DNA of 64,000 nucleotides, taken from positions 28,770,599 through 28,834,598 of the forward strand of contig NC_088309.1 of assembly GCF_910592395.1 (NCBI RefSeq). The letters run 5' to 3'. The notes under the pieces were generated by a model. It was given only the letters and a program-made list of their open reading frames with translations, searched no databases and was not told the origin of the DNA. The stretch's first letter is position 1, and each line of letters opens with the position of its first letter. The translations under genes were made by a program, and so were the position numbers. Of the stretch, positions 17,559 to 62,437 are shown in pieces. This DNA comes from Lineus longissimus (lineage: Eukaryota > Nemertea > Pilidiophora > Heteronemertea > Lineidae).

Positions 17559-17637
17559 CCCAATGATTTTTTTTCTCGTCTGTCTCCAACCTGTTATAGC
17601 TGATTGGGACAAAGTTGCAACCTGGCCTTCCTTGAGG

Positions 17638-18226: not shown

Positions 18227-18229
18227 TGA

Positions 18230-35839: not shown

Positions 35840-36704
35840 TGTCCGTGGTCTATTCAAATTGTTGTTGTGTCTTTTGGGCATTGTACTGGTTGTGACAAGA
35901 TGTCCTCCACATTGGTGATATGTCTCTGTACTCCTTTGTCAGAAGACCTAAGCTAGTTCAAACAAAGCATCATTGACTGGCTAGTGTTGGTCAGTGCGTC
36001 TTCAGTGGTGGTGACAGGATGTGTCGTGTACCCCCATGTAGTTTGGTGTCTTCAGTTGGTGATGACAGGCAGCCTTGTCATCACAAGCCCTAAAATGACT
36101 TCTCTCAGCATTGATATTTTGACATCGTCGGTCAAATTGCCAAGCTGCTGACAACTCTGTATTCAGTCCAACATTGGAGGACGAACCTGCAGGCACCTCT
36201 GCTTGTAATCCCATAAGCTACTTGGCCAATATGGAATAGGTTGAACCGAGTGGTTAGGACAGCATTGTGGTTGCGACTGCATGGACCTGCCTATCAGTTG
36301 TTACTGGTTTCTATTCCCTTGTTGGTGCAGCCAGATAACTTTGAGAAAGGGGAAGTGACTGTAAGGCATCAGATGAGCTGCTGGAAAGAGTCTTTTGGAT
36401 AGGTTGTGATAACCCTTTCACCACTTTACAGCAGGACTGTCTTGGACAGAGTCTCAGCAGTTGGTTGGGACAACTTTCATTAAGGTCTTTCGGCAAGGCT
36501 GAATTAGGACGGTGTCTCAAAAGACAGATATGTGATAAGGGATGTCGTGCAACATGGTGGATGGTCAGAGATCACTCCTGGGTTCAGGTCTCGTCAGTAC
36601 TTTGTTCATCACTGGTGAAGCAGCTCTTCAATAACCCCGAGTGCTTCTGTAGAGGAGGTTGACACAGTTTAACATTTAACAACACATGTATTAGTCTAAA
36701 GAAT
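35840..36704. other. Convergent FTSJ3/14-3-3 interval, no coding sequence recognised
   Basis: Open frames are short and unlike known families. It separates the FTSJ3 poly(A) site from the presumed distal end of the 14-3-3 locus. Confidence 0.5.
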
Positions 36705-36710
36705 TTTATT
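36705..36710 (-). terminator. Candidate poly(A) signal of 14-3-3 cassette 4
   Basis: AATAAA on the minus strand. The sequence before it (sense) contains AACTTGTGAAGTC...CTTTTGAAATAAAAT, resembling the corresponding segments after cassettes 2 and 3. Confidence 0.55.
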
Positions 36711-36863
36711 TCAAAAGGTAGACACTGACTTCACAAGTTACATTGGTGCATTTCAACTGTTCACAGATCAAACATAAGTAGTGATTCCGACTCCAAATTC
36801 AGGGGAGTCCAAAATGTAGCAGCAGTCTTTTTATTAGGATTTATTTTTCAAGGCACTGTAAAC

Positions 36864-37178
36864 GAGGCACAAGCTGATATCTGCATCAGCTTGCTGAGCC
36901 ATCAGCTACAGTCTGGTTAAGGCATTGAGGCACAAGCTGATATCTGCATCAGCTTGCTAAGCCATGGGCTACAGTCTGGTTAAGGCATTGAGGCACAAGC
37001 TGATATCTGCATCAGCTTGCTAAGCCATGGGCTACAGTCTGGTTAAGGCATTGAGGCACAAGCTGATATCTGCATCAGCTTGCTGAGCCATCAGCTACAG
37101 TCTGGTTAAGGCATTGAGGCACAAGCTGATATCTGCATCAGCTTGCTAAGCCATGGGCCACAGTCTGGCTTAGGCATT
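36864..37178. repeat. 63-bp minisatellite with an internal palindrome, 5 copies
   Basis: Units start GAGGCACAAGCTGATATC at 36864, 36927, 36990, 37053 and 37116. Each contains the perfect inverted repeat AAGCTGAT / 6 nt / ATCAGCTT. The array lies between the 14-3-3 cassette 4 stop codon and its candidate poly(A) signal, so it may be in a 3' UTR. Confidence 0.92.
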
Positions 37179-38305: not shown

Positions 38306-39115
38306 CTAGTCGTCCATATCTTGTACTGTCACACCTTCTTCATCCTGGTTATCTGAAATCAAAGATTCGACACATTCAGATTCATCAAACGTTCCAAGGG
38401 AAGCACAGACCAGAGTCAAATGATAAAGCTTTAGTTCAGAACAGAGAGGAACCCAAAGTCTACTTACGTTCATTCAAATCTGCCGTCCATAATGTCAGGT
38501 TGTCTTTGAGAAGCTGCATAATCAGAGTGGCGTCTTTATAATGTTCTGATCCCATACCCTCCATCTCGTTTATTGCATCATCGAACGCTACTTTGGCCAG
38601 TCGACAAGCCCGGTCAGGTTTATCCAAGATTTCATAGTAAAACACGGAGAAGTTGAGTGCCAAGCCAAGTCGGATGGGGTCAGTCGGAGGAAGGTCTAGG
38701 GCGGCCGTGTCGCTGGCTTCTTTATACGCCGTCAAACTATTCGATGCCATTTGCTTCCTGTTCTCACCCGTGGCAAACTCAGCGAGGTATCTGTAGTAAT
38801 CGCCCTTCCTGGAAAGAGAGCTAGAATCGTGAAAAAACTGGGGCCAAGTGCTTCCAAGATGTGAGCTTGTAGTGGCCGCAAATGTTCATTTCTAAAAGAA
38901 ACCCATTTCAAGTGTCACTGATCGCACTGGGTTCATACAATGGATTAACACCAACTCTGTATAGACAAGTATACATTGTACTAGAAGCACGGCAGTACTT
39001 ACATTTTCTGGTAGAACACCATTTGTTCTCCACCTTTGCTTTTGACCACAGGAATGAGGTTGTCATTGAGAAGACTTAGGATTTCGTTACATGTTGCTTC
39101 AAGGGTTTCCTCAAT
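38306..39115 (-). CDS. 14-3-3 C-terminal cassette 4 (distal)
   Basis: Exons A 39003-39115, B 38468-38808, tail 38306-38352; 254 aa with exons 1-2. Exon A begins [20 protein letters not shown]. Exon B has [40 protein letters not shown] and [13 protein letters not shown]; the arginine usual in QLLRDN is lysine here. The tail is [14 protein letters not shown]. This is the most compact cassette, with introns of about 195 and 115 bp. Confidence 0.93.
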
Positions 39116-42100
39116 CTGGAAAAGGCAAAGAAGTCCCATGGTTAAGAACAGGTCATTGGATAGTCCCCCTGGCAGTAAATGCAACTGTGATGAAGGTTTA
39201 CATTCATAGTTGTCAGGATACCAGTACCTTGGTAGCAGGTTGAGGTTTTCTTCAAGACGTCTACTACACACAGCCCCACAGTCCATGTGATAAACATGAC
39301 ACATCAGCTAGGCTAGCCAGATGACGGCTGGTACCAACGAGCTCTGGTTGGTCCACCATAGCCAGTTGCTCAATGAAGCACTGACCTGGTCCAGGACAAC
39401 CACAGTCACCTCATCTTCTCAGTGGCGTTTCTCATCAGGTCTGGTTTGGTCAGCAGATGTCAACTAAAGGGCTCGGATGAGTTCCAATGATAAATAACAA
39501 CAATTTTAAATTGATATTTTAATGGTAAAAGCAAGACATTCGTTTTATAAGTTGACCAATGACAACCTGACACAATTAAAATGCAACACAACTAAAGCTA
39601 ACATGTGACCAATAGATGGCAACACACGATTGAGAAGCATGAGAAGAGATTGCATGGCCAATGGTATATGGCTCTCACCTCATGAGAAGTTAGGAATAAC
39701 TACTTCAGTCAGTGTAAACAAATCAACCCTTCTCTACTCTCGTAACTAAACAATAGAGAGGAAATAGACACAAAATTTACATCATAAATTGCGCAATGAA
39801 ATTGATTGGTATGTCAGCTCATTGAATGGTACCTACACATTCGATTCACAAAAACAATCAGTGGAATGTTGGCTTATACAGTAAACAATATGGTCGTCTT
39901 CAACAAAGGAATTGTCATAGCAAGCTATGAATGAGGTATGCCTTTCAATCAGTGGACAGAGCTTGTCTTTCATACAAGTACTTCTGGGGCATGTCACTGG
40001 TTAGTTGGAACCTATCAGTTGCATCTTGAGTTTACAAATGGCTACAAATAAAGACTTCTTCCAATTCCAATTTATCATCACAATCATAATTCAATTTCAC
40101 ACAATAAGCAATATCTTCAATATTGTTTGTAATATTCCCTGCTAATCCCAGAGGGAACAGTTCTAACAACTAAGTCATCTCCCCATTTTCAATTAAAAAA
40201 TACAAGAAAAAACAAATTCAAATAAGTTACTTTGTGCATCATCACTTGAAACTCCGATAAAATGATATCTGAATCTGATATTTCGGTGTTTAACGAACGA
40301 AGTGCATGAATTCTAACCACTGAGAATGCTTGAATACAGTTCGGATTGTTCCAGCACACATAATGGCAGTGCCTGCATGACACTCTCGACATGGGCTGTT
40401 GTATTCTCAATGGTTTCCTGACAAATGGTGATCTGTTATTGATGAGCCGATGATTACTGGTCGCCTTCAACGTCCTGAAGTTGCTCGTCTTGATCATCCG
40501 CTGAAAGTCAAAACAGGAGAACACTCATTTTTTGGAAAAGGCATTCCCACAACTGCAGACATGACAGTTACATAAACATGGTCAATGTGATAAAAGTATC
40601 AAAGTGATGCAGAATACGACTCTAGGACGGAATCATCCAGGCCAGACCAAGTGATGTCTTGTCGTCCCCACCTGATCTCTGTCAGAGACCAGCCCAGGCC
40701 AGACCAAGTGATGTCTTGTGGTCACCATCTGATCTCTGTCAGAGACCAGCCCAGGCCAGACCAAGTGATGTCTTGTGGTCACCATCTGATCTCTGTCAGA
40801 GACCAGCCCAGGCCAGACCAAGTGATGTCTTGTGGTCACCATCTGATCTCTGTCAGAGACCAGCCCAGGCCAGACCAAGTGATGTCTTGTCGTCCCCACC
40901 TGATCTCTGTCAGAGACCAGCCCAGGCCAGACCAAGTGATGTCTTGTGGTCACCATCTGATCTCTGTCAGAGACCAGCCCAGGCCAGACCAAGTGATGTC
41001 TTGTCGTCCCCACCTGATCTCTGTCAGAGACCAGCCCAGGCCAGACCAAGTGATGTCTTGTGGTCACCATCTGATCTCTGTCAGAGACCAGCCCAGGCCA
41101 GACCAAGTGATGTCTTGTGGTCACCACCTGATCTCTGTCAGAGACCAGCCCAGGCCAGACCAAGTGATGTCTTGTGGTCACCACCTGATCTCTGTCAGAG
41201 ACCAGCCCAGGCCAGACCAAGTGATGTCTTGTCGTCCCCACCTGATCTCTGTCAGAGACCAGCCCAGGCCAGACCAAGTGATGTCTTGTGGTCACCATCT
41301 GATCTCTGTCAGAGACCAGCCCAGGCCAGACCAAGTGATGTCTTGTGGTCACCATCTGATCCCTGTCAGAGACCAGCCCAGGCCAGACCAAGTGATGTCT
41401 TGTGGTCACCACCTGATCTCTGTCAGAGACCAGCCCAGGCCAGACCAAGTGATGTCTTGTCGTCCCCACCTGATCTCTGTCAGAGACCAGCCCAGGCCAG
41501 ACCAAGTGATGTCTTGTGGTCACCATCTGATCTCTGTCAGAGACCAGCCCAGGCCAGACCAAGTGATGTCTTGTCGTCCCCATCTGATCCCTGTCAGAGA
41601 CCAGCCCAGGCCAGACCAAGTGATGTCTTGTCGTCCCCATCTGATCCCTGTCAGAGACCAGCCCAGGCCAGACCAAGTGATGTCTTGTCGTCCCCATCTG
41701 ATCCCTGTCAGAGACCAGCCCAGGCCAGACCAAGTGATGTCTTGTCGTCCCCATCTGATCCCTGTCAGAGACCAGCCCAGGCCAGACCAAGTGATGTCTT
41801 GTCGTCCCCACCTGATCTCTGTCAGAGACCAGCCCAGGCCAGACCAAGTGATGTCTTGTGGTCACCATCTGATCTCTGTCAGAGACCAGCCCAGGCCAGA
41901 CCAAGTGATGTCTTGTGGTCACCATCTGATCCCTGTCAGAGACCAGCCCAGGCCAGACCAAGTGATGTCTTGTGGTCACCATCTGATCCCTGTCAGAGAC
42001 CAGCCCAGGCCAGACCAAGTGATGTCTTGTGGTCACCATCTGATCTCTGTCAGAGACCAGCCCAGGCCAGACCAAGTGATGCCTTGTCGTCACCACAACT

Positions 42101-45100
42101 AACTGGAACATCTGTAAGCTTACTGTTTGGCAAATCGGACATCCAGAGTGTCAGATTATCTCGAAGCAACTGCATAATGAGTGTGGAATCCTTGTAGCTA
42201 TCTTCATGTAATCCCTCCAGCTCGGTAATCGCTGCATCAAACGCCGTCTTGGCCAGTTTACACGCATGCCGCGGTGAATTAAGAATCTCGTAGTAGAAGA
42301 CGGAGAAGTTCAGTGCCAAGCCGAGGCGGATTGGATTGGTCGGTGCGAGATAGGCCTGGGCACAAACGTCTGCTTCTCCATAAGCCTTTAAACTCGCCTC
42401 CGCAGCACTTTTCCTGGCTTCACCACTAGAGAACTCAGCCATGTAGCGATGATAATCTCCTAACCTGGAAAAGTAATCAAACACACCTCATCAGGCAAAC
42501 AGTCTCGAATGACTATTACAGCCGCTGCGAGAGGCACTGAAAGTCTCAGGACGAACATGAAATGGCCTACACCCAGTTATGGAGGCCGATACAACCAGGG
42601 AAGGAATGAGATCAGCAAATAATAATTCAAGATCGGTCATGGGCAAGGATGATCACTAGCGTTGTCTAGCTCAATGATCAGCAATGAGAAGTTCCATGGT
42701 GACACTCGTGTGACTTACATTTTTTTGTAGAAGACTTTGGCCTCACTTTGTTTTGTTGAATCAACTTCTGGTATGAGGAAATCAGTGAGTAAGGAGATGA
42801 TATCTTGGCACGTACTCTGCAGTTCCTTCTCAACCTGCAAAAGCCACAACCAAACAACATCAATACAAACATAGAGATACCTGGAGTATAATACAAGGGC
42901 AGGAGTTTGACCCTGGTGTCGAGGATGGCTATTCAGCACTGAGAGAGAACTGATCGCCTGAGACTCTACGGAGATCAACTTCAGGTCATATTCCCTCTCA
43001 TGTGACGTGCAAGTGGAGCTAGTGAAAGGCGCTGGCTTGCGAGGATGGCTGTCAGTCCATTGAAAGATAGATCACTGGGGGACACTGGGCAGATCTGCAG
43101 TTCACACTCCGAGCAACAGATCATTCTTATGGCGATATCTTTATGGAATGGGTGCAAGGGATTAGGGGTGAATGAAGTACGAGCTCATGTTCGGTCAAAC
43201 ACTACACCCAGCCACCTTGTGCACAACAATTGAGAAAACAGGAAATGCAGAAACGACCTCAGACAGACATCCGCATCACACCCGGGTAGCCAAGTATGTG
43301 CGACTGCAGTCATCATACTCCTGTGATCATGTAAGGCAGTAAGCTTTCCACAGAACCTGCCAAGGTATTTTCAGGAGTTTAGGCACACCAGCATTTCAGG
43401 ATGGATGGAATGTTTTGTATCATAGGACTTGGATGCTTCAACACGTCCATCCACTTGAAACCACAGAGTCTTCCCTGAAACTTCGCTACAGGGATCTGAG
43501 GATCAGCCTAAATGAAAAACAAGAGCCTTTAAGTTCAGACTTAAGATTTTAATGTTAAAAGCATGACATTGGTTTTACAAAGTTACATATCCCTGGATAC
43601 ACTACAAGATAATTGATTCACCATGTAGCTCATGTGAAATAAACAGAGAAGTATATAATGGAGATTGTTAGGCATCAACAGAAGAAACACAATTCACTGA
43701 CTACAGACAAAACCACTGATTCTACCTTAGAAAGTATGATGATTAAGAAGAACATTTAATCTGGTACAATCAAACTTTCACCTGATTTCTTCATAATAGT
43801 GATATCAGACTAAGTGTTAACCAGACCGGTTATAAGTTAAGTCCTACATTACTTGAAGCTCTCAGCTCTAAAAGCCTACACCTATAAATAGCCACTTTAC
43901 ACAATAGTGACCTTGTAAAAATGGCAGCATTGGCCACACTTAGACTGAACCTACCACATCTGCTGACCCCATCTTACTGCTGATGATAACTATGTTCAAG
44001 GGAAAACCAAGCCCAGGGAAGATGGTTTCTGATGATGTCGAATCTTTTCCTGGAGCCTACTCAAAAAACACGAAACTACATCTGATTCCAGTTTTTTACT
44101 CAAGAGGGAGTTCATTTCTCGATGTTTTCTTACGAAACATTGGGTTTACACGTTCAAAACGTTATTACAATCCACGTAAGACACAGAGGAACAAGTTGGG
44201 TGCACTAGGGTACTCTGTTAGCATGCAGGCTGATAAAGAAACATGTTCCTTAACTTAACAGTATAACAATATTCATCCAAGCCAAGTGAGTTACTCGGAC
44301 AAAGTGAGAAACCAAAATCATCAGGTTGGGAGCCAATCTTTTGACTGGAGTGATTTCCACACTACAAACATTGAAACAAGCACAGTTATTGAAAACCATG
44401 AAAGATCTTAATAATATGTTCACTTGAGAGGTCCCCTTCCACTTTGCACTCTAGTGACACTGGACTGACCTAACGTACATCTCCTACAACCGTCAGATTG
44501 CTCTTGACAGCGCTGCCAACGACTCCTATGGGGCAGATAAGATGGGTGTGGTTACACGGATCACAGAACATGGTGAGAAATGCTACTGGCATGCGCACCA
44601 CATACTACACATACACTGTTTATCTCCAATCAGATTGAGAGCCTTATTTAAATATTGTACATATACAAACGTCCATTGGCTTGCACAAGTGCAAACCGAC
44701 AGCATACTACATCCAAAGGTACATATCAGACAAGGGAATTCTCACCACAAATGCAAACTGATATGTTGAATAGTATCGAGGTATGCTTTTACCTTTAAGG
44801 GCATGAAAAATACTGATTTCTCTTCTCAATGTGGGCAGATAGCAGATTTTCAAAACATCACCCCATTCATCATTGAAACTGTCAATTTTTAAACATAATG
44901 TCATCAAGAAGGTTCATTTGTTTTCAAAGAGAGAATGTTGTTGTTAAAGGATAAAGGCTCTACCTGATCAATGACATGTAATGGTTAGGTTCTGTGAGGA
45001 TTCCTGGTGACGTGAGAATGTTCCTTGTCTGACAACATAATAATGTTCATGTTATGATCCAATTAACTGGTCCACAAACCAAGTAATATGCCAATAATGA

Positions 45101-48100
45101 AAAACATTACACATTCTCATTCTAAATGATATTAAAGCACTTGGAGAATAAAAGATGAAGTGAACCGGACTGAGCTGTCCACACTTGGCCTAGAATCAGA
45201 ATGGTCCTTTTTGGTGTTGTTCAGAGCAGTAGACAAAGCAAGGCTCGGTCTTCAAGCAGTTATCATTGCGACAACATCTACTGGACTGAAGAAGTTAAAG
45301 GCCTACGACCTAGAATCTCCAACATGATTGAAAGAGCAACATGACTTGGGTGTTGGTGCCACTGGACTTATCTTCACCCCAAGCGACAGCTCAACTCACT
45401 TGGAAGCCTTATACGACAGAGACAGGGTTGATAACGACCAGGGCCCAGTATCATAAAATGTCAATGTGACGTCGATAGTCATAACTTCTACTTATGCTCT
45501 ACATCAATAAACTTGAAATAAACACTTCCCCGGAATGAGCATACCCAGAAGTTTTGGGTGGAAATGAAGTTTTATGAGACCGACCCATAACACTGATGAA
45601 TCAAGTTCTTCAGTGTTTATGAACACTTATCTCTTCTGAACACCAATGCTCCTTGGATTATGATACCAACTTACCATACGGAGCAATCAGAGCGAGTGAA
45701 TTCTAGAAGAGAATCTTACCAGATAGTCTCCATGGTCTGGCATCAACCTATTATACACCTAAATGATTCCAGTGTAAAAACAACCATTAATATTACACAC
45801 TTGAAATTGTTAAAGCTACCTCGGCCCTCCATGAAATTGTGGCGAAGGTGTTTTACCCATGATGCCTCATCCTTACTCAAATGTGATGCTCACTACCACC
45901 ATGTCTATTCCAACACAAGAATAAGTTCACCCCCCCCCCCCAAGGCAGTTACACAAAAGAACTTGCCTACCCTGATACACCAAAACATCAACATTGAATC
46001 CAGCATTGGGGTGAGCACTTTAAAGTCAATGAATCCCAAGAACGCGGCTGGGCGCGATATTGATTGGGTTAAGTCTCTATACCCGCAATTTAACAAGGCA
46101 AATAACGGCGATATATGTCAGGATGGTATAGTGTTTTGAGAAGTCTTGTGGCACTTATACCATTACAGTCTCATAACAACCTAGGATGACGATCGACATC
46201 TCTCACGAAACCTCACAAGCCACAGTTTTGAATGATGATTTTCATAACCTACCGACATCACAAACCCAAAACACCTACTTTGATATAAATTCTACCCATC
46301 TTCTGCTCAATCTCCCAGGGTCAACTTATCAGGCTTATTAGTTAGCAAAATGACCGAGTTGGAGAATTATAGGATGTGTCCAAATGTGTTTCTCCTTCCT
46401 CTAGTCAAATAGATGATGCCAGGCTGGACACGGGCAAACTTGGCTTGAGAAAGTTTTGAAAGAGCGCGAGATCACATCCCATCATCATCTCACACATCCC
46501 ATCTCAGATGTAGAATAATCATATTAGAAATGTCAACAATAATTGACACGAACAACCAAATCTCTGCATTATATGCAAAATCATGACTATCTTGACTTTA
46601 TATTCATCTCCCTCTTACAATGTTTGGCTAACTTGACAAGGACTGAGGCCTCTCGCGTGCAAACTGGCTGCTTGAGGCCAAGCTGGATATTGGATATCTC
46701 AAACAGCAGCAACAGCAAGCAGAGACAGGCTGTTTACATAGGAAAGCTACTGATTACAATCCCACGGAAAGCATTGTATGGATCGGCTTTTAAAATTGGG
46801 CCTCTGGTGGATCCTACCCAATGATGACTCATCTAGGTCGCCTTCGAATGAATGGTAAAATACTGCATTAACTGATGCACTAGGAGAACATCTACCTGTG
46901 GTTCTGAAGGAGTGAATGACAAGCGATCTGTGCACAATCTCCTCTTAAAGTGGAGGCCCGGTTTAAAACAACTGATTATTATAACAGCTGAAAATGTATG
47001 CAACACAAGATGCATTGCCATTGCCAGTTAGGCTTTGCTTGCTGCATCAGTCATTGCCAAGTTAGCTGACTCAGTGCGTGATCAAGGCATGCTGGGGCTG
47101 ACCAATAGGTGAAATAAGCACGTTGGGTCCTCCTTCTTGGTCCTTATTTCTTGGGCTGGTAACGGACCATTACCATCCACTACACGGTGCCACTTTTATG
47201 AAGCCTCCTGTGATTCCTCTGCATCCTGGAGTTCCACCTTTGTTGCTTCATTCTCTGCAAATTGAAGCAAAGTCTTTATTGCAGTGGGTCAACAGCAGAC
47301 AAACCAGGCCATGCAACTAAAAATTCTCATGATTACGAAATACTATTAAAGTACAAATTGCAGAAAAGGAAACAAGAAGTCCATGGAGAGGGCTATTTCA
47401 TCCAGCTTCCCGAGTTGTCAGGAAGCAATCATTGTGATTTGACCCAGTTGATACTGCTGAAAGATGAATGAAGATTGTGAATGAGCTTTACAAACAGCCT
47501 CAAGTCAACTTGATTTGACCGGTCTCTAATCAACTTGAAAAGACGTGCCTCAAGTCAACTTGATTTGACCGGTCTCTAATCAACTTGAAAAGACGTGCCT
47601 CAAGTCAACTTGATTTGACCGGTCTCTAATCAACTTGAAAAGACGTGCCTCAAGTCAACTTGATTTGACCGGTCTCTAATCAACTTGAAAAGACGTGCCT
47701 CAATTAAACTTGATTTGACCGGTCTCTAATCAACTTGAAAAGACGTGCCTCAAGTCAACTTGAAGTGACTCAACAGGTTTCCGAGTTGTGATATCTTACC
47801 ACCATCTTGCATGTCTGTCGTCCAGAGTGTCAGATTATCTCGTAGCAGCTGCATGATGAGTGTGGAATCCTTGTAGCTTTCTTCACTCAACGTATCAAGC
47901 TCAGCTATCGCATCGTCGAAAGCAGCTTTTGCCAGTCGGCATGCACGATCAGGTGAGCTAAGGATTTCATAGTAAAATACTGAGAAATTCAAGGCTAAGC
48001 CCAACCGTATTGGGTGAGTTGGTGGCAATTCTTTTGTAGCTATATCACTGGCCTCTTTATAAGCACATAAGCTTCGTTCTGCTGCAGCCTTTCGGTCCTC

Positions 48101-51100
48101 GCCGGTCGCAAATTCAGCCAAGTATCGATGATAATCACCTTTCCTGAAGGAGAAGAGGAGGGAGTAATGAGACACGACTTGCTTCCTTTAGAGAGGTCAC
48201 CTACAGGAAACACACTGGCACTGTAGCAATATCCTCATGAGAGAACTTCAGAACCACTCTAATCAAAGGTAGTTCTCCATTCATCAATTTTAACTCCAAT
48301 TCATACAAGATTGTCAAACAAGGGCACTGCCAATGGAACAACCAGTTCATATGTTAACCACAAGAGGGCACTTCAGGCAGTCCTAAGATCACAGTGGTCC
48401 CATGTGAACATGGTGTGGCCTGCTGTGGACATGGACTTTGGTCAGGCATTTGCATAAATGAGGGAAGGAAACAATGCCCCACAAACCAACAAAAGAGCTT
48501 AGGGCTCTGTACAAGGGCATATGAATGGAGTGTTCTGTATAGACAGTGCAACAGCTGCTATGAATTGTCAACATGCTCATGATAGGCATTGTTATTTTGG
48601 GAAAACAAAGTCATACTACTTAGACCAGATTATACAGATAATCCAGATTGTGAAGCCGGTCATTGTTATCATGGCTAAGCCACAGTATAACCTCCATTAG
48701 TGGACACCTTGGAAAGCATGATGCCCTCTTTCAGTCACCAACTGTTCCATTCTATTTCTTCTCTTGTTATCTGGACACCCCTCAATTAAAGACAGCATTT
48801 CTCAGTTGCAAGGGTGTCTTATATACAGAGGTTCTACTCCCAGCACAGACTTGGAGTCTTGTCCAATCGCTCTAACCAGATGGACAAAGCTCACCCGCCC
48901 TCTGCACACATTCAACTTACATTTTCTGATAGAAGACTTGTTGTTCCCCTTTCGAGGCCGCAGTTAACAGATGATCCTCCAAAATCTTTATGATATCATT
49001 GCAGATATTTTTAAGTTCTTCTTCCACCTGAAAATCACAATTACAACCTGAACAGAGGAAATAATCCGTAGTACCTTATGCTTTATCTGAAATACTCTCG
49101 TTCAATCTTTTTTAAACAACAGTCATTATAATCTGGCGAGGACTGGTCTAAAGTACTGTCTGTCAAGACGGGAGGACACTGGGCTTGTTCAAGAAGGTCC
49201 AACCAAGAGACTGACACAGGACTCATTAGGAGAGGAACTGGCCATGATGGTAGTTATCTGGCTCCACCAGTACTTCCAAGGATCACACACCATTGTATAC
49301 TAGCTGGATTCTTCCCATTCCAATGCCACAAGTAGATGACCTAACTAAGCTGTTTGCTTTTTGTGTCTTCACGACTACTCAACATATAAATCCTTCTGAG
49401 GCCAGGTCCAATTTCAAGGTGCAAGGATTTCTACAGGCTCACAGGGCAAATATGCAACAGCTGACTGACCAAGTTACAGCTGGTGTCATAAGCAAGCAAC
49501 AGTACAACTTCTCAGGACACTGGCATCTACTCAACACTTGACAGTGCAGTGTCTGCTACTGGGTTTGAGGGAAACAGGAAGGCAAATTGTTGGATTTCAT
49601 AATCAAGAACATGACCTGGATTACAGGGAATAGCGCTCCTCTCCACAGTCAGGCTAGAAATAGGTCAGAAAGCATGTCATGAGAGCCAAAATTGGTCAAC
49701 ATAACTGACATCATATCTCTTCCCCACAATGCATTTGTGTGATCTTCGAGTGATAAACTTGTGACGGTTACATTATGCACAAGTGCAGAGCGTTAAAAGT
49801 ACTTCATAAGCGACTACAAAGCAGTTCTATCCCTATTTTGGTATGCACTACCAACACACAAGGCCAATGATCGTTATGTTCCTGATATCAAACAAGCCCA
49901 GCACCTATCCAACAGTCATATAGTCTGTAGATGACAATAACATCTGGCACACTTCTATGCAAAGGAATTTCCAAAACAGGGGTACTGTCCCTCGTTCTAT
50001 CATGACTCAATCCACTTTGTATCAAAAAAAATTGAACAAGAGTATTCACTAAAGAAAGTATTTAAAGAGATTCACGATACTGAGGACTGTAACAAAACAC
50101 ATCACAAGCTAAATTACAGCATGCAACTTGTAACACAACTTTGACTTGTAAACAGTTAAAAATGTGCAGCAAGCAAACTTGAGGAAAGCAAAGCATAAGC
50201 TACATAAAGCACTGAAGGTGAGGGCACAAGGAGGGGAGCCTGACTGGCAGGTCACTAATGATGAATCTGAATGAAACCAATGGGAGTGCATGTACCTACC
50301 ATTTAACAATCAGCATGCTAGCATCATCACACATACGACTCGAAAAATGTGCTGGTTGGTCATGTTGCCTGTCCATGGAAATGTGAGTGACGAGAGACGC
50401 GCTAAGCTTTAATGGAGGAGGTCATATCAGCTGGGAATAGGAAGGGCATCCATCTTTATGTTCAAATGACTTTCACCTGTTGTGTAACCCATTGCTTAGT
50501 CCTGGACCTACACGCGCAACTGTGATTGACTTTCTAACCAAAATCAATAAGACGATTGCACCTGGCTGGATTAACTAATCTCTTTAGTGAGTCAACATCA
50601 AAATCAAATGGTGTGGGGGAGAGGGGGCTTCCAAAAGCAAGACTCACATTGTACAAGGGCAAGGCTGGTGTAACTCGGTGATGTGACAAGTACTATTCAT
50701 TGAGCAATCTGAAGGCATAACCATCACAGCGTCTGCTCCCTGACCAAATACCAGCAAATCATATCAGACATGGTAGAGGGATAACTTATGTCCTTTACCA
50801 TGATGACAGGGCTTTGACAAACAAAACCATGACCCATAGCATCAGAACCTGTCTGATTTCATCTAACTTCCAAGCTGTTGAGCTCCCAAGGCCATGATTT
50901 ATTCTGACAAAAGGAGCAAGTTAACCAAGGATTACTTGTCAATGTTTTAAGTGCTAGTTTATATTCATATCTTTTATTATGGTAATTCTACTAGAAAATG
51001 AATTTAACTTACTTGCTCAATTGGTCATGGTGATGTCAGTTGAAACTTCTTATCGTCATAAATGTGAGAATCATCCGCGACATCTTGATGAAATTATATT

Positions 51101-54100
51101 GTCAGATCCACTCATCTGTTTTCTTGCAACATGTCTGGCTTCAGAGCTTTGAGAAGGAGCAGGCTAGCATTGTTTATTCATCAATGATTTATTTACAGTG
51201 GTGTACTGGTGTTTCAACACTATTAAAGAACTGAGCCTAAAAGTAGCAAGACGCATCTGGACTAGGAGGCTTTCTTTGGCATGGAGGACACAGCCTTATC
51301 AAATCAGTCATTTCTGGGATGATGATAAAAGGTATCATTTAAAAGGAACCTTTCGAGAGTGTGGCAGGCTAGTAAAGTGGTTATGAGAAAGCCATTGCAC
51401 AAGGTGGTAAGGGAGAGCGCTAGACCCAACATAGCTGTCCAGAGGCGAAAGAGCAAATACAGTATCATGGCACCAATACTACAGTGACCATCAAGAGTAC
51501 ATTGATTTCATGATGCACATGGCAGGATGCATGCTATACAACTTCATCAACATGTTACAAGGTCTGTTCAGGGCTGAGAGGCGCGGTAGTCATCATTTGG
51601 TTTTCAATAGGCAGCAAAGAAAGCTGGACTTGTTTAGCGTCACACTACATACATTTCCATGTTTTGCATGACTGTTGATAGGGTTGCTGCCTATCCGGAA
51701 CCAAACAGGAACTACAGGAGCCGTGTCAGAGGCGGTAACATGTAGGATGTAATCTGGGCTATCCATTACATCTTGAGGGGGGCTTGATACAAGTACATTC
51801 ACATTATGCTTGGTCTCATTCATCATTCATTTTCCAAATTGTGACAACAAAGGGCAAATTGAGCAAAACATTACAACACAACAATGCAGAATTCCTGTAA
51901 AATTGAAAGTATACAATGAAATAAAATGAACAGCGAGCAAGCAAAACTGTTGTGCATGACCGAACTTTAAGTGAGCAGAGTTCATGTTCAGCGCTTCACC
52001 CAGACAGAAGGAATCTATTGACATGCCTGACAGCTCAATGTACATGCTGTATGAGTGTGTAGGAATTCTTGAGCTTGGGAAGTCCTGTACATATTCAGCT
52101 CACTTCAGTTCTCAAGCAGCAAAAGTCCTCAGACAAATAATTACATGGATTCTAGTGAGAGCAATGATCTCAGTACTCCACTCAAAATTCAACACTGAAA
52201 ACACTCTTTGGTTTTGTGACATGTTTCTAGATTCTATCAAAAAAGTATAAAATGTGCATTTCTGACAGGAATACAATGCAGGGCAAGGAGAGAAATGTGA
52301 TTCTCCACGCAGACTGATCAGAAAGTTCATGAGTTATGAAGAAAACAGCACAGGCTGACTGATTTGGGTGGAGTTCATGGTTTAGAAGGGGTGCAACTAC
52401 AGAAGGCTTCATTACAATTACAACTTTAAATGGGACTGCAGGGTGCCCCCCAAATACGTCAAGCAGGACCCAAGAGTGGATTCTCCGATTTAAAGGGAAT
52501 TGCAAAGACCTGCCTTGACTGTAATCCTATCAGCGAGTCAAGAAATAATGTACAAAAAGAATACTAGACTAAACAAAGGATGTTCTTCTCACCTTTTGTG
52601 ATCAAATCAATAAAACTCAAGACTACACTCAATTGCCTCGTGTCAACAACAAAACACAATAGAGCATGAACAATAAGCCTGACATTATTCCCTTGTATTG
52701 GATTCAGTCAGTCCATGCTGGTTTACTTCTCACCAAGCAGCCAGCACATTTTGACCAGCATTTTAGAACAGCAGCCAATATGACAAGGCATTGGTCAAAC
52801 TGTCATGCAAACCTTTACAGCACATGTTCAGCAATCCGCCATGCCTAAGGTCAATTGGAGTTTTTTACTGTTTGTTTTTGTTACAAGCATCTCCTTGGTT
52901 GTGGGATATGGAATGACACTGTTATGGGTTGTCTAGTGACAAAACAAGTTACTTTCCCATTCAATGACAATTTCTGCCACTGCCACTGGTATCCATCATC
53001 ACTGAAAATGTTGCCTGTTGAAGTTGTAGTCGCACACATTATCTACAGCCATACTGAGGATGATCACACCCAATCACCACCTTCATACACCCCTTATCTA
53101 CAGCCATACTGAGGATGATCACACCCAATCACCACCTTCATACACCCCTTATCTACAGCCATACTGAGGATGATCACACCCAATCACAACATTCATACAC
53201 CCCTCCCCTAGATGGTCCTCTTCTCCACAGCATGACAGCCACGATCAAATAAGCTTAAATTTAAAATTCAGACACTCACATCATCACTCAATCAGTCTGG
53301 GATTAGCAACAGACTGTCCGTGTTCGAAGTCCAGACTGGGACTGACCAAACATGACAAATGACTAAGCAACACCAGATACATTTCTACTTTCATTTTATT
53401 AGGTCTGTATTCAGAACTAAACATCATCAGCTGTATATATGTAGTAAACAGTCGTGGATAATGGCAAAATAAATGGCAAAATTAGCGCAAACAACCAAAA
53501 CTTCATTTTTCAAGTTGCATCGACAGAATTATTCAAAAGAGCCAGGAAGTCAGTGTTCAATCTTAAAATATCATGTATTGAGGTCACTTTGCCCTTGGAT
53601 TGGGTTTCTTGGCAATGAGCTCGTCAGTAGGACACGCGAATGTTAGCCTTTGGCCTTGATCAAGGTGCACATCACATTACAGAACAAATGGCTTCATTCT
53701 GACCCTAAAGTTTTATCTTTATAATTAGATGAAATGGTCCAAAACGGATAACAAAAACTGCTCGAGGAAAATATCACAAAACGCGCATTCAAAAGCAGTC
53801 CATCATAAATAAGTCACATTCAACAAAATGTTAGTTATCAAAATACAAAACTACACGGTATACAATAAACATGATGATAAATAAGGACTCAACATCCAAC
53901 ATGATATCATAATCCAACTATTGTTACTAAGGACATGTTTTCCTAAAATGTTCAAAAAGGTGGTCCCTCCTCTGTCAATGAGCCTTTGCTCTATTGTAAC
54001 CTTACTGTCCTAACACAATGAATGACCTCCTGCCCTGTGTTAGACTACCTACATGCTTTTTTAATGAGGTCTGGGTTTACCAGCAGCAGGTGATCAACAA

Positions 54101-57100
54101 GGACCCCAGGATATGAAGCCAATGATAGACCTCTTACAAGGAATGTTTCAAAGTCCTCATAGTCATAAGATTTCAACAATCACTACAAAGCGGCATTTTG
54201 CATTTTACTACAAATTAAAAAAGATTTCCATCTAAATCTTTATGAGTTCACCATGTTCAAGCATACATGACGATGTGCTCTGACCAATAAAGTCCACCAG
54301 GTGGGATGAGAGATACTTTTTAAAAGTTCTTTAACACGAGATCAGCAGTAATGTATCCTGATAATTTCCCATTTAGTCGTCATCCTCCACATCCTGCAGC
54401 TGGGTGTCATCATCTGAAGGGTAAGATAAGCAGATGCACAAAGGGCCTTAAAATCATGGGAGTATTCCTAACAGGTTTTATCAAGAGGGAAATGGCAGAA
54501 GCACAGGGCAGCTGCCGAGTTCAATCTTGACATTACAGTTACTCTGAACTCGCTGAAGGCTCCATCATTACTAAGTTCTGGCTACATTATCACTAATTTG
54601 TTTATTACGAGCTGAAAGGCCAATTCTGAACTTGGTAAAGTCGCAACAGTTTGTATGCACACAGTGGCTACTGGATATCGGACAAGGACATGTTATCCAG
54701 AGATGAAGAATGTTTGACATTTTCTGATTTCAGACAATTCCCTAACTCAAACTCTGTCAAGTAGTATAGGGTGCAGACTGGGTCATAAGGTATGTCATCA
54801 GCCATCAGTGTGTTAGACTACCCACCTTCATTTCCCTCTCCATACTGGTCATTCTGCCACAACTGCAGATTGTCCCTCAGTAGCTGCATGATCAGTGTCG
54901 CATCCTTCCTTGTGTCTTCCAACTTCATATCAGAGGACTTCAAAGCATCATATGCGCACTGGATAGCATCTTTTGCCAACTCACAAGCTTTCTCCGTCTT
55001 GCCCATGATCTCATAGAAAAACACAGACTGATTGAGCGCAAGACCGAGTCTGATTGGATTACAAGGGTCAAGAGCTTGGGCAGAGGCTTCATTTGCTGAT
55101 GCGTAGAAGCACAAACTTTTTTCTGAAGCTGCTTCACGTGCGCTGCCATCTAACACTTCAGCCTTGTACCGCTGGTAATCACCAAGCCTGGAAGACAGAT
55201 GAACAATGCATGATTTGGGAGTTGGGCAGTGATCAATTTGTAAACAGATTCTAGCATTCTACCAAAATATGTAATGCCCGGTTTGTCAGACAAGAAGAGT
55301 GTACTGTTTCAATCATTGTTAATCTGCCAAAAATGGCAAGATTTCTTTGCAGAGCTGAGGTGTGTGTCATTTTGACTGAAACAATTAACATAGTTATAGT
55401 AAAGAAACGTTTTAACCCTCAAAATCACTGATGAACAACACCTGGCGCAAGTCCAATGATGTCAAATGTTATGACTCATGCCTCATTGATCATTAACACA
55501 TGACACTATTGGTATTAGTAGTTCTGACAGTGCATTTTAACAATGCTTTTTTATTCTGATTCAAATCAGGTATACTATAAATATTATTTTGTAAAGCCAT
55601 TCCATGTTGCAAAAATGCAGTGATTGTTATGTACTTATCATATACCCATCTGAAAACTTAACAGAATGGCAGCACTTCTTTCATAGCAAAGGAATGCTGA
55701 GAGGGTATGACAGAGTTGTATGCTATATCCTTTGCATGAACCAGACTTGCACTGCTTGATCTAAAAGATGACAAGGCACTTACATCTTGAGGTAGAAGAC
55801 TTTGGATTCATCTGATGCAGAATTGGGCACCACTGCATCGTCTAACACATTCACCACATCATCACAGAGATTGCATATGTCGTTCTTTATCTACAACCAA
55901 AAGAATGAATAGATATAGGGCTGTCAATTGAAAGTTTAGTTTTGTCATATGATTTGAAAGCAAATAGAAATACCAACACCAGTTGGAAATCTGCACCCGA
56001 AATATGCCTCTCAGGATCAGTGCACTACGCAATTGAACTTCACCAAGCTATGAGGTCAAAAACGACATCACATCACAGATTTGGGGGAATGGTGCCATTC
56101 CCAACAGAACTGACCCATAACTCGGGCAAGTTTGGCCATTCAAGTCCGACTGCTAGTTGCACCAATCTCAGTGTTTCCTCCGTCATTTACTGGCAAACAA
56201 TTGAGCCTATAATTATTTGTATGTCTTGGCACTACAGTGATCCGAGTTTTGGACCCTTGTACAGTCTCATTCACAACACGCACACATCAGACAAAATAGA
56301 AATCATGCTTCATGCCCAAATATCAGACCTGAAAATGCAATATTTAGAAAGAGGGCAGAATTGGCAAGAGACAAGACAACAAGGAAAGCCAATTTTATGA
56401 GCTGTGCATATTTCAGACACGCAACAGAATGCATCCTCATAAGCGGGTGTCAAGCAGAAGAGGGTTGAATATCTCCACATGGTGTGAAACAAGACACTTA
56501 ATTTCACACTCGATTCAGTCACAATGTTTACATTATGCAGGCTAGGCTATGAGGTTACTATTTCAAACAATTTCTCAATAAGCAGGCGTCTACCATCTAG
56601 ATACCACATTTTCATCCCCCAAAATCAGTAAATGTACATGTATACAAAATGCATACAATCCTTATCAAGCTGTCGTCATGCGGGTAAAGAGGCCTTGTTC
56701 AAACTGTGCAAGAAGCTTCTCTACCATGGGTTTGCCATGTGCACTGGATTAAGTAGATTAACTTGAATTAGAGAGGAACTGAAGAGCAACATGAAACCAA
56801 CACAGACACCACAAACATTCTAACTATTTGCAGTGACTGTGTACGACACTTTTGACTTGAGTAACAAAGTATCAAGTTCTGAACTAAAGCAATTCCATTG
56901 AAACTTTCCAGAGCCAACAAAGACAAGACCATTACAAAGCAAGGTAGGCAGAGGTCAGGTGAGCAAGCAGCAGGAATAGGGGAGCAAAATAAAACATGCA
57001 GTCAAGTTTTAAAAGAAGTTCAATTAGTTTTATTCTTACCTCAGTCGCCAGCACTATAAATCAAATGGTCTTCCTCCCCATCAACCAAATGCGTTCAGCG

Positions 57101-57608
57101 TCTTCAGTAAAACAAAACTGACCAGTCCGGCAGTTCGAATGCGTGTAAATTTAATCAGGACAGAACCACACTGCGTCGGATATTGTGTTATTGCGGGACT
57201 ATCAGACAAACTAACGCAAAATGATGTCAGTGTGGAGAGATCAACAGCTGCATCCCATGTGAAAATATTCAACCTCCAGCAAACACATTCATAATCAAGC
57301 AATCAAGCAATGAAATAATCAATCTATGAATTGACCAATCAATCAATCACACAGCAGTAGCTAACCACTGATCAAAGATCAATGACAACATTTTCTAAGA
57401 CTGGTTTTAAAACAAGGATGAAGTTAGGCCAAGGTTAATCAGATAGCGGTGTTGAGCTACCAATATTTTTCAGCGCAGAGGGCACAGAAATTAGAATGCT
57501 ATTCAGCATACATTCAATGTACTGTTCTTTAACATTTCACTACAGAATTTAGGTTCAAGATTTAGAAGGGTGTATTTTACTCTACACACTACTGACACAC
57601 TTCAATCG

Positions 57609-57674
<66 letters not shown>

Positions 57675-59499
57675 CAACCCAGATCATCAACAATAATGAT
57701 TTCCATGAAATGTAGAGGTAAATCCAAAAGCTGAAATAAGTTTAGTGCACTACTACAACACAACAGGCATTCTCTCAAATAGTTTCAAAATGATAACAAT
57801 CCCGTTGACATGACAATAGAATGATAAGCTGGATTGAATCTAACTTATTTGGTAACTTCCCGATGATGTCTGCATTCACTGCTGTAACTCAATTGACCTG
57901 GAATGCTATTGATAAATTAGGTCAATGCCGTATCCCAATGACCTCAGACAAAGCAAGTTGGGAACGCTGGACAGGTTGATTTTTACAAACATGAAATAAG
58001 AAATAATGCACATGTAAACAAGTTTCCTTGACCAAGTTTCTGTACTTACTGTTTCTTTATAATCTTGGATCAATGATTTTTTGCTTTCGTCTTTATCTCC
58101 TTCTTTTTGTTCTATGCTGCTAATTATTCTCCAAGACGCACGCCGTGCACCGATTACATTTTTGTAGGCGACTGAGAGTAGATTTCGTTCCTCTACAGAA
58201 AGTTCTACATTCATCTCGGCCACCTTCTTCATAGCTGCTACCATTTCTAGATGAAAATGCAGAAAACTTGATGTTATAAAAAAACTTTTTTGTCGCCCCG
58301 CCTGACCAAATTTTGGCCACCGCCCCGAGAAGATACTTTCTTATTTCACAATATGTCACCACATTATGTATTATATCAGACCACACTTGTGCTGTCCATG
58401 CTGACAGCACTTTGGGGATTGCAAGAGCCCTTGGCCCTGATTTTATTAGGGTTTGGATTGGAATGGATGAGAAACAACATTTTACTTTATAACGTGTCCT
58501 TCATTATTACCGATTGAGAGAGCGAGATGTATTTGCTACTTCCATTGACAGATTCTGTGCATTCCTGGTCCCTGAGCCCAGCCCCAGCAAATGAACAGAT
58601 CAAAAGCCCAGCGCATGCAACTTGGCGACTGAATGTACTACTGTACTGTACAGCACTTAATATGATATAACACAAGTTCCTTTTTTGATGTGCCCTGCAG
58701 ACCTTTGAGCGGACTAGCCCTAAAGGCCCCAAGCAATCTGCCTCTTCTCTTCCCAGTGCTGCCCCTTCTTGCAGCACGTGTGCGATGACCCGCACACTTC
58801 TCTGGTCTTGTTTCCAGCATCAGTACAAGGCCTATGACAAATGCTTGGCCAATGTATCTCCTCGATTAACCAGGACTATCAAAAGTATGTCATGGAGAGT
58901 TAGGCCTAGGGTTGGCGAAACTGTGAAGATGACCAGACTCAGCGACGTCAGAAGTGTCAACCAATGATTACCCTTTTACACCAGGCGGAGGAAGTCATGC
59001 AGTCTTTCGTTTGCTTCTTGTTTGTTGTGGCCTTTACTGGCTTCCTCCGCCTGGTGCGAGGGCCTCTTGGCTCTATCAATCAGACAAGGGCCTACGGCTA
59101 ACGCCGTAACGGCTACATTCTACAGAAGACTCGAGTCGAGAATCAGCAAAGTGGCTATATAATAAATATAGCCTAGAATTAAGAATAGTCAGAATGAAAT
59201 ATAAACGTATCATCAACCTCATGATCTGGCAAATAACATAAAATGAATAAATTGTGCATCTCAGTACTGACAGCCGACTTTCGACAACCTGTGGAATGAA
59301 ACTTCAGATGTGTACATTCATGTACACAACAGTCCGTTTACATACTGATCATTGATATAGACAGGGTTCTTGGATCATTTTGTTGGGACGGACCCTCCAG
59401 TTAAAGGGGTCGGACAAGGACGATCCACTCACCATCATAACGCTCGGCTTGCTCAGCCAATTTGGCCTGATACACATGTTCATCTCTATCCGCCGTCAT
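38306..59499 (-). CDS. YWHAE: 14-3-3 epsilon-type locus: one N-terminal module and four C-terminal cassettes
   Basis: 14-3-3 proteins are dimeric phosphoserine/threonine-binding adaptors of the cytosol. Exons 1 and 2 (59433-59499, 58050-58246) occur once and encode the first 88 codons. Downstream are four three-exon cassettes: 54373-55890, 47196-49027, 40454-42834 and 38306-39115. In every cassette exon A starts in phase 0 and ends in phase 2, exon B ends in phase 1, and the tail exon carries a stop. Each combination is open and gives 257, 257, 255 or 254 aa (human epsilon 255). No further copy of exons 1-2 was found between the cassettes. The simplest model is alternative splicing with alternative polyadenylation. 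Truncated decayed genes or separate promoters are alternatives; transcripts would decide. Confidence 0.88.
39518..39523 (-). terminator. Candidate poly(A) signal of 14-3-3 cassette 3
   Basis: ATTAAA on the minus strand, preceded (sense) by AACTTATAAAACGAATGTC, TTGCTTTTACC. This is about 80% identical over some 40 bp to the site after cassette 2. Confidence 0.55.
40454..42834 (-). CDS. 14-3-3 C-terminal cassette 3
   Basis: Exons A 42719-42834, B 42124-42464, tail 40454-40500; 255 aa with exons 1-2. Exon A ([20 protein letters not shown]) is the longest of the four. Exon B has [20 protein letters not shown] and [20 protein letters not shown] with intact ligand residues. The tail is [15 protein letters not shown]. 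The intron between exon B and the tail holds the 24-copy 60-bp minisatellite. If that intron were retained, the frame would continue about 24 codons, ending in SLGLAWAGL and a stop inside the repeat. Confidence 0.93.
40640..42094. repeat. 60-bp minisatellite, about 24 copies, intron of 14-3-3 cassette 3
   Basis: The unit is CAGGCCAGACCAAGTGATGT, CTTGT[C/G]GTC[C/A]CCA[C/T]CTG, ATC[T/C]CTGTCAGAGACCAGCC. Two main variant types alternate irregularly. Because 60 is divisible by three and the unit is stop-free in several frames, open frames of 480-512 codons appear on both strands; I do not call them genes. In the sense (minus) direction the array starts about 30 nt after the exon B donor. Confidence 0.97.
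43548..43553 (-). terminator. Candidate poly(A) signal of 14-3-3 cassette 2
   Basis: ATTAAA on the minus strand, preceded (sense) by AACTTTGTAAAACCAATGTC, ATGCTTTTAAC, homologous to the cassette 3 site. Confidence 0.55.
43554..47195. other. Presumed 3' UTR of 14-3-3 cassette 2; no other gene seen
   Basis: About 3.6 kb between the cassette 2 stop codon and its candidate poly(A) signal. It includes an 11-base C run near 45931. Open frames such as 45660-46139 have no recognisable motif and are judged chance. Confidence 0.4.
47196..49027 (-). CDS. YWHAE: 14-3-3 C-terminal cassette 2 (most epsilon-like)
   Basis: Exons A 48921-49027, B 47800-48143, tail 47196-47254; 257 aa with exons 1-2. Exon B reads [40 protein letters not shown] and [20 protein letters not shown], nearly identical to vertebrate epsilon, so this is probably the ancestral cassette. 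The tail is the longest of the four ([19 protein letters not shown]). A 50-bp minisatellite starts about 30 nt after the exon B donor. Confidence 0.94.
47499..47766. repeat. 50-bp minisatellite, about 5.4 copies, intron of 14-3-3 cassette 2
   Basis: The unit is CTCAAGTCAACTTGATTTGA, CCGGTCTCTAATCAACTTGA, AAAGACGTGC, containing the palindrome TCAAGT-CA-ACTTGA. In the sense direction it starts about 30 nt after the donor of exon B (exon edge at 47800), the same relative place as the 60-bp array in cassette 3. Confidence 0.93.
49028..53394. other. Spacer between 14-3-3 cassettes 1 and 2
   Basis: Intronic for transcripts using cassettes 2-4. I looked for a second copy of exons 1-2 or another gene and saw none. 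It contains three copies of a 55-bp repeat at 53039-53203. Confidence 0.55.
53039..53203. repeat. 55-bp minisatellite, 3 copies
   Basis: Units contain ATCTACAGCCATACTGAGGA and TGATCACACCCAATCAC, TTCATACACCCC. Located just beyond the cassette 1 candidate poly(A) signal. Confidence 0.9.
53395..53400 (-). terminator. Candidate poly(A) signal of 14-3-3 cassette 1
   Basis: AATAAA on the minus strand about 970 bp after the cassette 1 stop codon. Its flanks do not clearly resemble those of the other three cassettes. Confidence 0.45.
54373..55890 (-). CDS. 14-3-3 C-terminal cassette 1 (proximal, most diverged)
   Basis: Exons A 55784-55890, B 54826-55187, tail 54373-54413. Joined to exons 1-2 it gives 257 aa. 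Exon A encodes [18 protein letters not shown] and VFYLKM. Exon B keeps the groove residues R-Y ([10 protein letters not shown]), [10 protein letters not shown] and [13 protein letters not shown]. It differs where the other three read [12 protein letters not shown]: here [12 protein letters not shown]. The acidic tail ends [13 protein letters not shown]. It is clearly the most diverged copy and may bind a different client set (inference). Confidence 0.92.
55280..55400 (+). repeat. Diverged relic of the 817-bp satellite unit
   Basis: TGTTTCAATCATTGTTAATC, TGCCAAAAATGGCAAG aligns with TGTTTCAATCATCGCAAATC, TGCCTAAAACGGCAAC of the array. A weaker match follows (GTGTGTCATTTTGACTGAAAC against GCGTCTTTTTCATTGAAAC). 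It lies between exons A and B of 14-3-3 cassette 1. Confidence 0.6.
55891..58049. other. 14-3-3 intron 2 (to cassette 1); no coding sequence recognised
   Basis: It contains an (ATCA)n run at about 57604-57672. Otherwise unique, AT-rich sequence without recognisable features. Confidence 0.5.
57604..57672. repeat. (ATCA)n tetranucleotide microsatellite
   Basis: About 17 near-perfect ATCA units in 14-3-3 intron 2. Confidence 0.93.
58050..59499 (-). CDS. YWHAE: 14-3-3 shared exons 1 and 2 (N-terminal module)
   Basis: Exon 1 (59433-59499) begins [20 protein letters not shown]; exon 2 (58050-58246) contains [40 protein letters not shown] and [11 protein letters not shown]. These match 14-3-3 epsilon almost residue for residue, including a T/D-rich start. 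The module covers helices A-C, which form the dimer interface. It also supplies the lysine and arginine of [10 protein letters not shown], half of the phosphate-binding pocket. Exon 2 ends GAA-ACA|GTAAGT in phase 0, matching all four downstream exon A acceptors. Intron 1 (58247-59432) holds a 16-bp inverted repeat. A GC-rich stretch (GGGCGCGG on the minus strand, near 59575) lies upstream of the ATG. Confidence 0.95.
58979..59056. repeat. Short inverted repeat (16-bp perfect arms) in 14-3-3 intron 1
   Basis: Arms CACCAGGCGGAGGAAG (58979-58994) and CTTCCTCCGCCTGGTG (59041-59056) pair perfectly. Three more pairs (one G-U) extend inward, leaving a loop of about 40 nt. Confidence 0.85.
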
Positions 59500-62390: not shown

Positions 62391-62403
62391 TATAGCCCCC
62401 AAG

Positions 62404-62411
62404 TGACGTCA
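62404..62411 (+). promoter_or_regulatory. Full CRE site (TGACGTCA) upstream of the GLTP-like gene
   Basis: Perfect palindromic CREB/ATF-type octamer 14 bp after the TIR element and 27 bp before the ATG, followed by CATCCGG. This suggests a compact promoter with a very short leader. Confidence 0.55.
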
Positions 62412-62437
62412 CATCCGGTAATTGAAAAATAGCAGAG

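Follow-up and report, generated by a model that had tools for sequence, protein, structure and literature searches.

We analyzed a 64,000-nucleotide stretch of the genome of the nemertean Lineus longissimus (NCBI RefSeq assembly GCF_910592395.1, contig NC_088309.1, positions 28,770,599 to 28,834,598; hereafter the window, in whose own numbering all positions are given). On its minus strand we found a 14-3-3 gene that extends from an ATG at 59499 to the stop codon of a fourth C-terminal cassette at 38306. The first two exons, which code for a common front of 88 amino acids (aa), are present once and are followed by four tandem cassettes, each comprising an exon A, an exon B and an acidic tail exon with its own stop codon. 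We regard it as probable that this is a single gene of the 14-3-3 epsilon class, with one promoter, common exons 1 and 2, and four complete alternative 3′ units. An initial annotation of the same DNA had described this anatomy, with products of 254–257 aa, and exon mapping together with tblastn searches confirmed it; the arrangement of a single front and four cassettes is real.

Anatomy of the locus and its gene models

The start codon in exon 1 is preceded by an in-frame TGA. Across the cassettes, exon A measures 107–116 nucleotides (nt), exon B 341–362 nt and the tail exon 41–59 nt including the stop codon. The products of cassettes 1 to 4 contain 257, 257, 255 and 254 aa, respectively, of which the last 166–169 residues, tail included, form the swapped part. 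When the window was searched by tblastn with exons 1 and 2 (E ≤ 1), the matches were these two exons alone, with no second sequence resembling either one. Searches with each exon A, exon B and tail revealed no fifth cassette in the window and, besides the four cassettes, gave four weak, scattered matches with E values of 0.40–0.84. Nor did we find in the window a common constitutive 14-3-3 exon 3′ of the cassette cluster, every cassette having its own stop codon and tail. Within the window, the gene has a shared 5′ part that occurs once, followed by tandem homologous 3′ units with their own stop codons, the arrangement by which we compare it below with the Drosophila genes pip and PGRP-LC.

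Splice sites and phases agree throughout. Every intron has GT–AG ends, and the donor of each exon A has the sequence GTAAGT. The intron phases are 0 into exon A, 2 between exons A and B, and 1 before the tail in all four cassettes, which bears out the phase pattern and the splice compatibility proposed at the outset. Because these three phases all differ, exon 2 can be joined without a frame shift only to an exon A, an exon A only to an exon B, and an exon B only to a tail. All 12 cassette exon lengths equal 2 modulo 3, and each of the 64 mixtures of exons A, B and tail has an open frame, 20 of them keeping the genomic order. With the order A–B–tail forced by the phases and the mixtures open, hybrid isoforms are possible, up to 20 of them in genomic order. 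We consider the chances about even that a whole 14-3-3 isoform family arises from this one gene through complete C-terminal halves with their own 3′ untranslated regions (UTRs), with hybrids as a further possibility.

At the level of NCBI gene-model proteins, alternative use is seen for two of the four cassettes. Exons 1 and 2 followed by cassette 3 correspond residue for residue to “uncharacterized protein LOC135483413 isoform X3 [Lineus longissimus]”, and the same exons followed by cassette 4 to “14-3-3 protein epsilon-like isoform X4 [Lineus longissimus]”. Among 280 stored proteins, the exact 88-residue front occurs in X3 and X4 only. By these identities, the automatic models of NCBI already splice exon 2 to the two cassettes farthest from it, which at this level speaks against the scenario, named in the initial annotation as refuting, that cassettes 2–4 are never joined to exon 2. 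Alternative NCBI models usually rest on RNA reads. The raw data given for the assembly tnLinLong1.1, in the available part of its report, are genomic, with no RNA among them (PMC8593623).

Table 1. Exons and candidate 3′-end elements of the Lineus 14-3-3 gene in window coordinates
Feature	Position	Strand	Remarks
Exon 1	59433..59499	-	67 nt; start codon 59499; phase 1 donor TGATG/gtgagt
Exon 2	58050..58246	-	197 nt; phase 0 end AAACA/gtaagt; sole copy in window (tblastn)
Cassette 1 exon A	55784..55890	-	
Cassette 1 exon B	54826..55187	-	
Cassette 1 tail	54373..54413	-	stop TAA
Candidate poly(A) signal AATAAA, cassette 1	53395..53400	-	973 nt past stop; our pick among seven
Cassette 2 exon A	48921..49027	-	
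Cassette 2 exon B	47800..48143	-	cassette nearest to epsilon of other animals
Cassette 2 tail	47196..47254	-	stop TAA
Candidate poly(A) module, cassette 2	43511..43588	-	ATTAAA at 43553, 3643 nt past stop; one earlier hexamer (43760)
Cassette 3 exon A	42719..42834	-	
Cassette 3 exon B	42124..42464	-	
Cassette 3 tail	40454..40500	-	stop TAA
Candidate poly(A) module, cassette 3	39486..39553	-	ATTAAA at 39523, sole hexamer there; 931 nt past stop
Cassette 4 exon A	39003..39115	-	Thr at Glu89 position
Cassette 4 exon B	38468..38808	-	
Cassette 4 tail	38306..38352	-	stop TAG
Candidate poly(A) module, cassette 4	36678..36743	-	AATAAA at 36710, 1596 nt past stop

Constraint, relationships and protein features of the cassettes

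The cassettes have diverged far from one another under purifying constraint. Over exons A and B, protein identity between cassettes is 45.6–68.5%, with cassette 1 sharing 46–48% with the other three. The proportions of synonymous (pS) and nonsynonymous (pN) differences between cassettes are 0.69–0.83 and 0.23–0.41, respectively, and the synonymous distance (dS) is 1.86 and 3.16 for two cassette pairs and beyond correction for the other four. With pS near or past saturation and pN lower, the cassettes appear to be old, their replacement changes lagging behind. In a simulation of unconstrained substitution at differences of 0.43, 0.33 and 0.30, which ignores insertions and deletions and whose differences lie slightly under those observed from cassette 2 (0.45, 0.36 and 0.365), only 0.08%, 0.16% and 0.24% of 5000 cassettes were free of stop codons. 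Chance or decay is an unlikely cause of the open cassettes. The earlier impression that none of them looks decayed is thus supported by the rarity of stop-free frames in the simulation, by pN below pS, and by a peptide-binding groove that is kept.

All four products match the Pfam 14-3-3 profile (PF00244) from profile position 2 to 222 or 223 of 223, scoring 289–354 bits against a cut-off of 33.2, with E values of 2.5e-86 to 4.7e-106. For a 239-aa query of exons 1 and 2 with cassette 2, the best matches in the Protein Data Bank were 14-3-3 protein epsilon (8dgm and others; best E value 3e-119). We built a tree of the four cassettes with 29 proteins chosen from the 280 stored (33 rows and 152 columns). 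The top identity to any row is 83% for cassette 2, 67% for cassettes 3 and 4, and 53% for cassette 1, the 67% row of cassette 4 being cassette 2 itself. Judged by these sequence comparisons, cassette 2 is the most ordinary of the four. Cassettes 2–4 fall inside epsilon groups with support values of 94/86 and 87/81, neither branch being starred. Cassette 1 has the longest end branch, with a length of 10, and could not be placed; a single clade of all four cassettes was not rejected by the approximately unbiased test (p-AU 0.08). As cassette 1 is unplaceable and the tree program warned of the long branches of cassettes 3 and 4 meeting, we claim no order of duplication.

For comparison at the residue level, we aligned the products with 168 of the 280 stored proteins (235–275 aa, X3 and X4 left out), a set biased to close matches. 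Exons A and B contain 95 positions that are constant in at least 97% of this set. Cassettes 1 to 4 change 31, 3, 10 and 14 of them; the 168 homologues change 0 at the median and 11 at most, which places cassettes 1 and 4 above every homologue; the common front changes 1 of 46 such positions. The phosphopeptide groove is retained, with all 14 positions checked being kept in all four products. We take these positions, in zeta numbering, to be K49, R56, K120, R127, Y128, L172, N173, V176, L216, I217, L220, N224, L227 and W228, of which K49 and R56 fall in the common front. This result extends to 14 positions the earlier observation that every cassette keeps the R-Y and N residues of the groove.

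The common front presumably comprises helices A–C and the first part of helix D, and we assume that it carries most of the dimer surface. The proposal that the dimer interface lies in the common half would therefore hold for most of that surface but not for all of it, as Glu89 (zeta numbering), which we take to form a salt bridge with Arg18 of the other subunit, is located in exon A. At position 89, 167 of the 168 homologues have E and the remaining one has a gap; cassettes 2 and 3 also have E there, cassette 1 has D and cassette 4 has T. Position 85, coded by exon 2, is T in all four products. The ten dimer combinations put forward earlier stand as an upper bound, but equal pairing is too simple a picture, since with D and T at position 89 in cassettes 1 and 4 some of the ten dimers may be more likely than others. 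Dimers that contain cassette 4 may be weaker or biased, and the predicted pool should be a mixture of homo- and heterodimers with skewed preferences. The products would share helices A–C, part of helix D and the same groove, and would differ in their outer surface and their tail; those of cassettes 1 and 4 would also differ in a dimer contact.

3′ ends, promoter signals and alternative readings

Comparison of the window with itself revealed a noncoding match of 35 bases (88.6% identity) between the stretches 5′ of exons A3 and A4. In extended alignments the match is longer and includes an in-register polyadenylation (poly(A)) hexamer; it is seen again behind cassette 4, a unit with no exon A after it. 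Against the whole 64 kb on both strands, the cassette 2 module finds the modules of cassettes 3 and 4 at the next ranks, with scores of 63 and 46, followed by 33; in comparison with 200 shuffles the two score 65 and 46, the shuffle maxima being 34 and 30. Hexamers are present behind all four cassettes, and the homologous module behind three of them. Seven AATAAA or ATTAAA hexamers lie between the stop codon of cassette 1 and exon A2, the nearest being an ATTAAA 308 nt past the stop, and three AATAAA (37872, 36845 and 36835) are closer to the stop of cassette 4 than its module. That the module has been preserved while synonymous sites have come close to saturation or passed it points towards selection or a later exchange of sequence. 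We read it as the candidate cleavage and polyadenylation region of each unit. If it marks the 3′ end, the 3′ UTRs of cassettes 2, 3 and 4 would be approximately 3.6, 0.9 and 1.6 kb long, and the repeated unit would consist of exon A, exon B, tail and 3′ end. An Rfam scan of positions 34000–64000 gave no match at gathering scores.

Given these features, we propose that each unit comprises exon A, exon B, the acidic tail exon with its stop codon, and a 3′ UTR that ends at a poly(A) site belonging to that unit. In a given transcript, exon 2 would be spliced to one exon A, and the RNA would then be cleaved at the poly(A) site of the same unit; for a distal unit to be chosen, the nearer poly(A) sites would be read past and their exons skipped. 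The outcome would be decided between 3′-end processing of a unit and the splicing of its exon A to exon 2, as for alternative last exons, here with three exons per unit. That each cassette has its own candidate poly(A) signals suggests such a choice of last exon, as opposed to internal exons of the classical mutually exclusive type. We infer that units 1 and 2 are also used, and that a single promoter serves all four. If this is true, the common front would keep the isoforms pairable, while the cassette would set the client surface, the tail, the fate of the mRNA and the dimer preference at position 89.

The ratio of observed to expected CpG (CpG o/e) is 0.80–0.83 at exon 1 and 0.19–0.48 in the 500-base intervals that hold each exon A start or lie next to it on the 5′ side; high at exon 1 and low at the exons A, it fits a single promoter. 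Separately, CpG o/e is 0.65–0.83 over exon B of cassettes 2–4 (38001–39000, 42001–42500 and 47501–48000) and 0.34–0.42 over exon B of cassette 1 (54501–55500), a contrast that may come from different germline methylation.

Several observations weigh against one promoter and four alternative 3′ units. X3 and X4 are computed models. A protein combining exons 1 and 2 with cassette 1 or cassette 2 is absent among the 120 matches listed, one cassette 1 search having used residues 89–257 of its product as the query, although an exact match would be expected at or near the top. The models X1 and X2, implied by the numbering, were not found with a filter that products more than 1.75 times the query length would escape, and they may be longer or odd. 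Behind cassette 1 the module is absent, and the surroundings of the candidate signal are unlike those of cassettes 2–4. The only match there to the cassette 3 module is a weak one at 50978 (score 30, 1% of shuffles), about as expected from the 66 pairs compared. The modules of cassettes 3 and 4 do not stand above background when compared directly, an unrelated place at 6271–6213 scores 41 against the cassette 3 module, and there are several further hexamers, the totals being 7 for cassette 1 and 5 for cassette 4. A low-power scan of the start of intron 2 in this single genome found no convincing competing RNA pairing. Finally, CpG o/e is also raised at 57001–57500 (0.63, intron 2), 53501–54000 (0.55), 46001–46500 (0.66) and 40001–40500 (0.66, holding tail 3), which leaves room for internal promoters.

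The first, third and last of these CpG-raised places, together with the missing products of cassettes 1 and 2, would also suit an origin as tandem partial copies, in which no more than one or two cassettes are spliced to exon 2 and the rest form separate units with hidden first exons and promoters. We consider this quite improbable, given that no second sequence like exon 1 or 2 was found in the 64 kb, that the phase 0 donor of exon 2 is compatible with the acceptor of every exon A, that CpG is low at and just 5′ of every exon A, and that the NCBI X4 model must pass cassettes 1–3 to reach cassette 4. The absence of its product, its longest branch and its 31 changes at 95 near-invariant positions, against at most 11 in the 168 homologues, could instead mark cassette 1, above all the cassettes, as a relic or as the source of a non-functional or monomer-biased protein. 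Its frame is nevertheless open and its splice sites intact, its pN of 0.38–0.41 lies below its pS of 0.69–0.83, all 14 groove positions are kept, and it has candidate poly(A) signals of its own, which makes such a fate unlikely.

Mutually exclusive internal exons with a common 3′ end, selected, as for 14-3-3 zeta of Drosophila, through RNA pairings that compete with one another, would be in keeping with membership of the same protein superfamily and with duplicated exons that are equal in phase. The docking-selector scan compared the first 500 nt of intron 2 with the stretches 5′ of each exon A, with six shuffles each. The best duplexes of A2 and A3 score slightly above their shuffles (29.5 against at most 28.5, and 35 against at most 32), but that of A4 (28) falls under the highest shuffle (30.5), and that of A1 (41.5 against 32) consists of a simple TGAT repeat. 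In intron 2, the duplexes of A2, A3 and A4 lie at neighboring places (57955–57870) but use different bases, and we therefore claim no docking site. As each cassette also has its own stop codon, tail and candidate poly(A) region, and no common downstream exon was found in the window, we regard selection of this kind as extremely improbable.

Repeats and further coding sequences were also noted in the window. An array of 25.6 copies of a 57-bp unit (40637–42095) takes up most of the intron between exon B and the tail of cassette 3. It is stop-free in three of six frames and was rejected as coding sequence: the unit equals 19 codons, so that a frame tends to have stops in most units or in none, and stop-free frames are not evidence of coding. 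A piece of 39–47 bases recurs at a spacing of approximately 0.8–1.0 kb over 8490–16851 (at least 11 matches) and is also found in the A–B intron of cassette 1 (55300–55346), with 83–85% identity. Short-period tandem arrays with units of approximately 49–85 bp, part of the 11 rows reported, lie at 2676–3095, 17621–18228, 34441–35195, 36864–37179, 47497–47763, 53039–53204 and 63099–64000; several of them lie in introns or 3′ regions of the gene. Head to head with the 14-3-3 gene is the start of a coding exon with an ATG (62438–62576, plus strand), which we take to resemble glycolipid transfer protein; CpG o/e is 0.95–1.03 at 62001–63000. Open reading frames at 24157–27536 (minus strand) and 30409–30786 (plus strand) resemble fragments of two proteins, eIF3 subunit C and an rRNA methyltransferase of the SPB1/FTSJ3 type.

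Comparison with known systems

Animals usually diversify 14-3-3 proteins through separate genes, and ordinary epsilon genes have, to our knowledge, one C-terminal end. The Lineus gene, with cassettes 2–4 among the animal epsilon rows, has four ends against this one, and seems to have reached the same diversity inside one gene, by duplication of everything after the common front. The pip and PGRP-LC genes, the latter coding for a peptidoglycan receptor, have multi-exon coding units behind a shared 5′ part.

In Drosophila 14-3-3 zeta, three mutually exclusive exons are described as forming a cluster, and the docking site is in the intron 3′ of this cluster (PMC6071210, PMC3923563). On this description, both 14-3-3 genes have been diversified through tandem exon duplication; zeta swaps one exon, whereas the Lineus gene swaps the last 166–169 residues, tail included, along with the 3′ end. 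Drosophila pip is described as having eight tandem clusters of alternative terminal exons, and PGRP-LC as having 3′ variable regions, both chosen mutually exclusively and both with competing RNA structures (PMC9013439). The Lineus gene is like these two in having tandem homologous 3′ units after one front. It differs from pip, a sulfotransferase, and from PGRP-LC in that its shared and swapped parts split one helical domain, and also in that competing RNA pairings, reported for both of them, were not found for it in the single-genome scan.

In the open-access literature, covered mostly by title and the start of the abstract, we found no 14-3-3 gene with alternative C-terminal cassettes. The novelty claimed in the initial annotation thus stands for 14-3-3 proteins within that literature, but not for tandem alternative 3′ units as such, which are known for pip and PGRP-LC. 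The gene would offer a natural test of partner choice, in which the front and the groove residues are the same and the variables are the outer surface, the tail, the 3′ UTR and one dimer contact. The mechanism of last-exon choice may be approached through the conserved poly(A) module. The Lineus gene looks like one of the pip and PGRP-LC kind in a 14-3-3, and with it the known genes that have tandem alternative 3′ cassettes would include a lophotrochozoan example.

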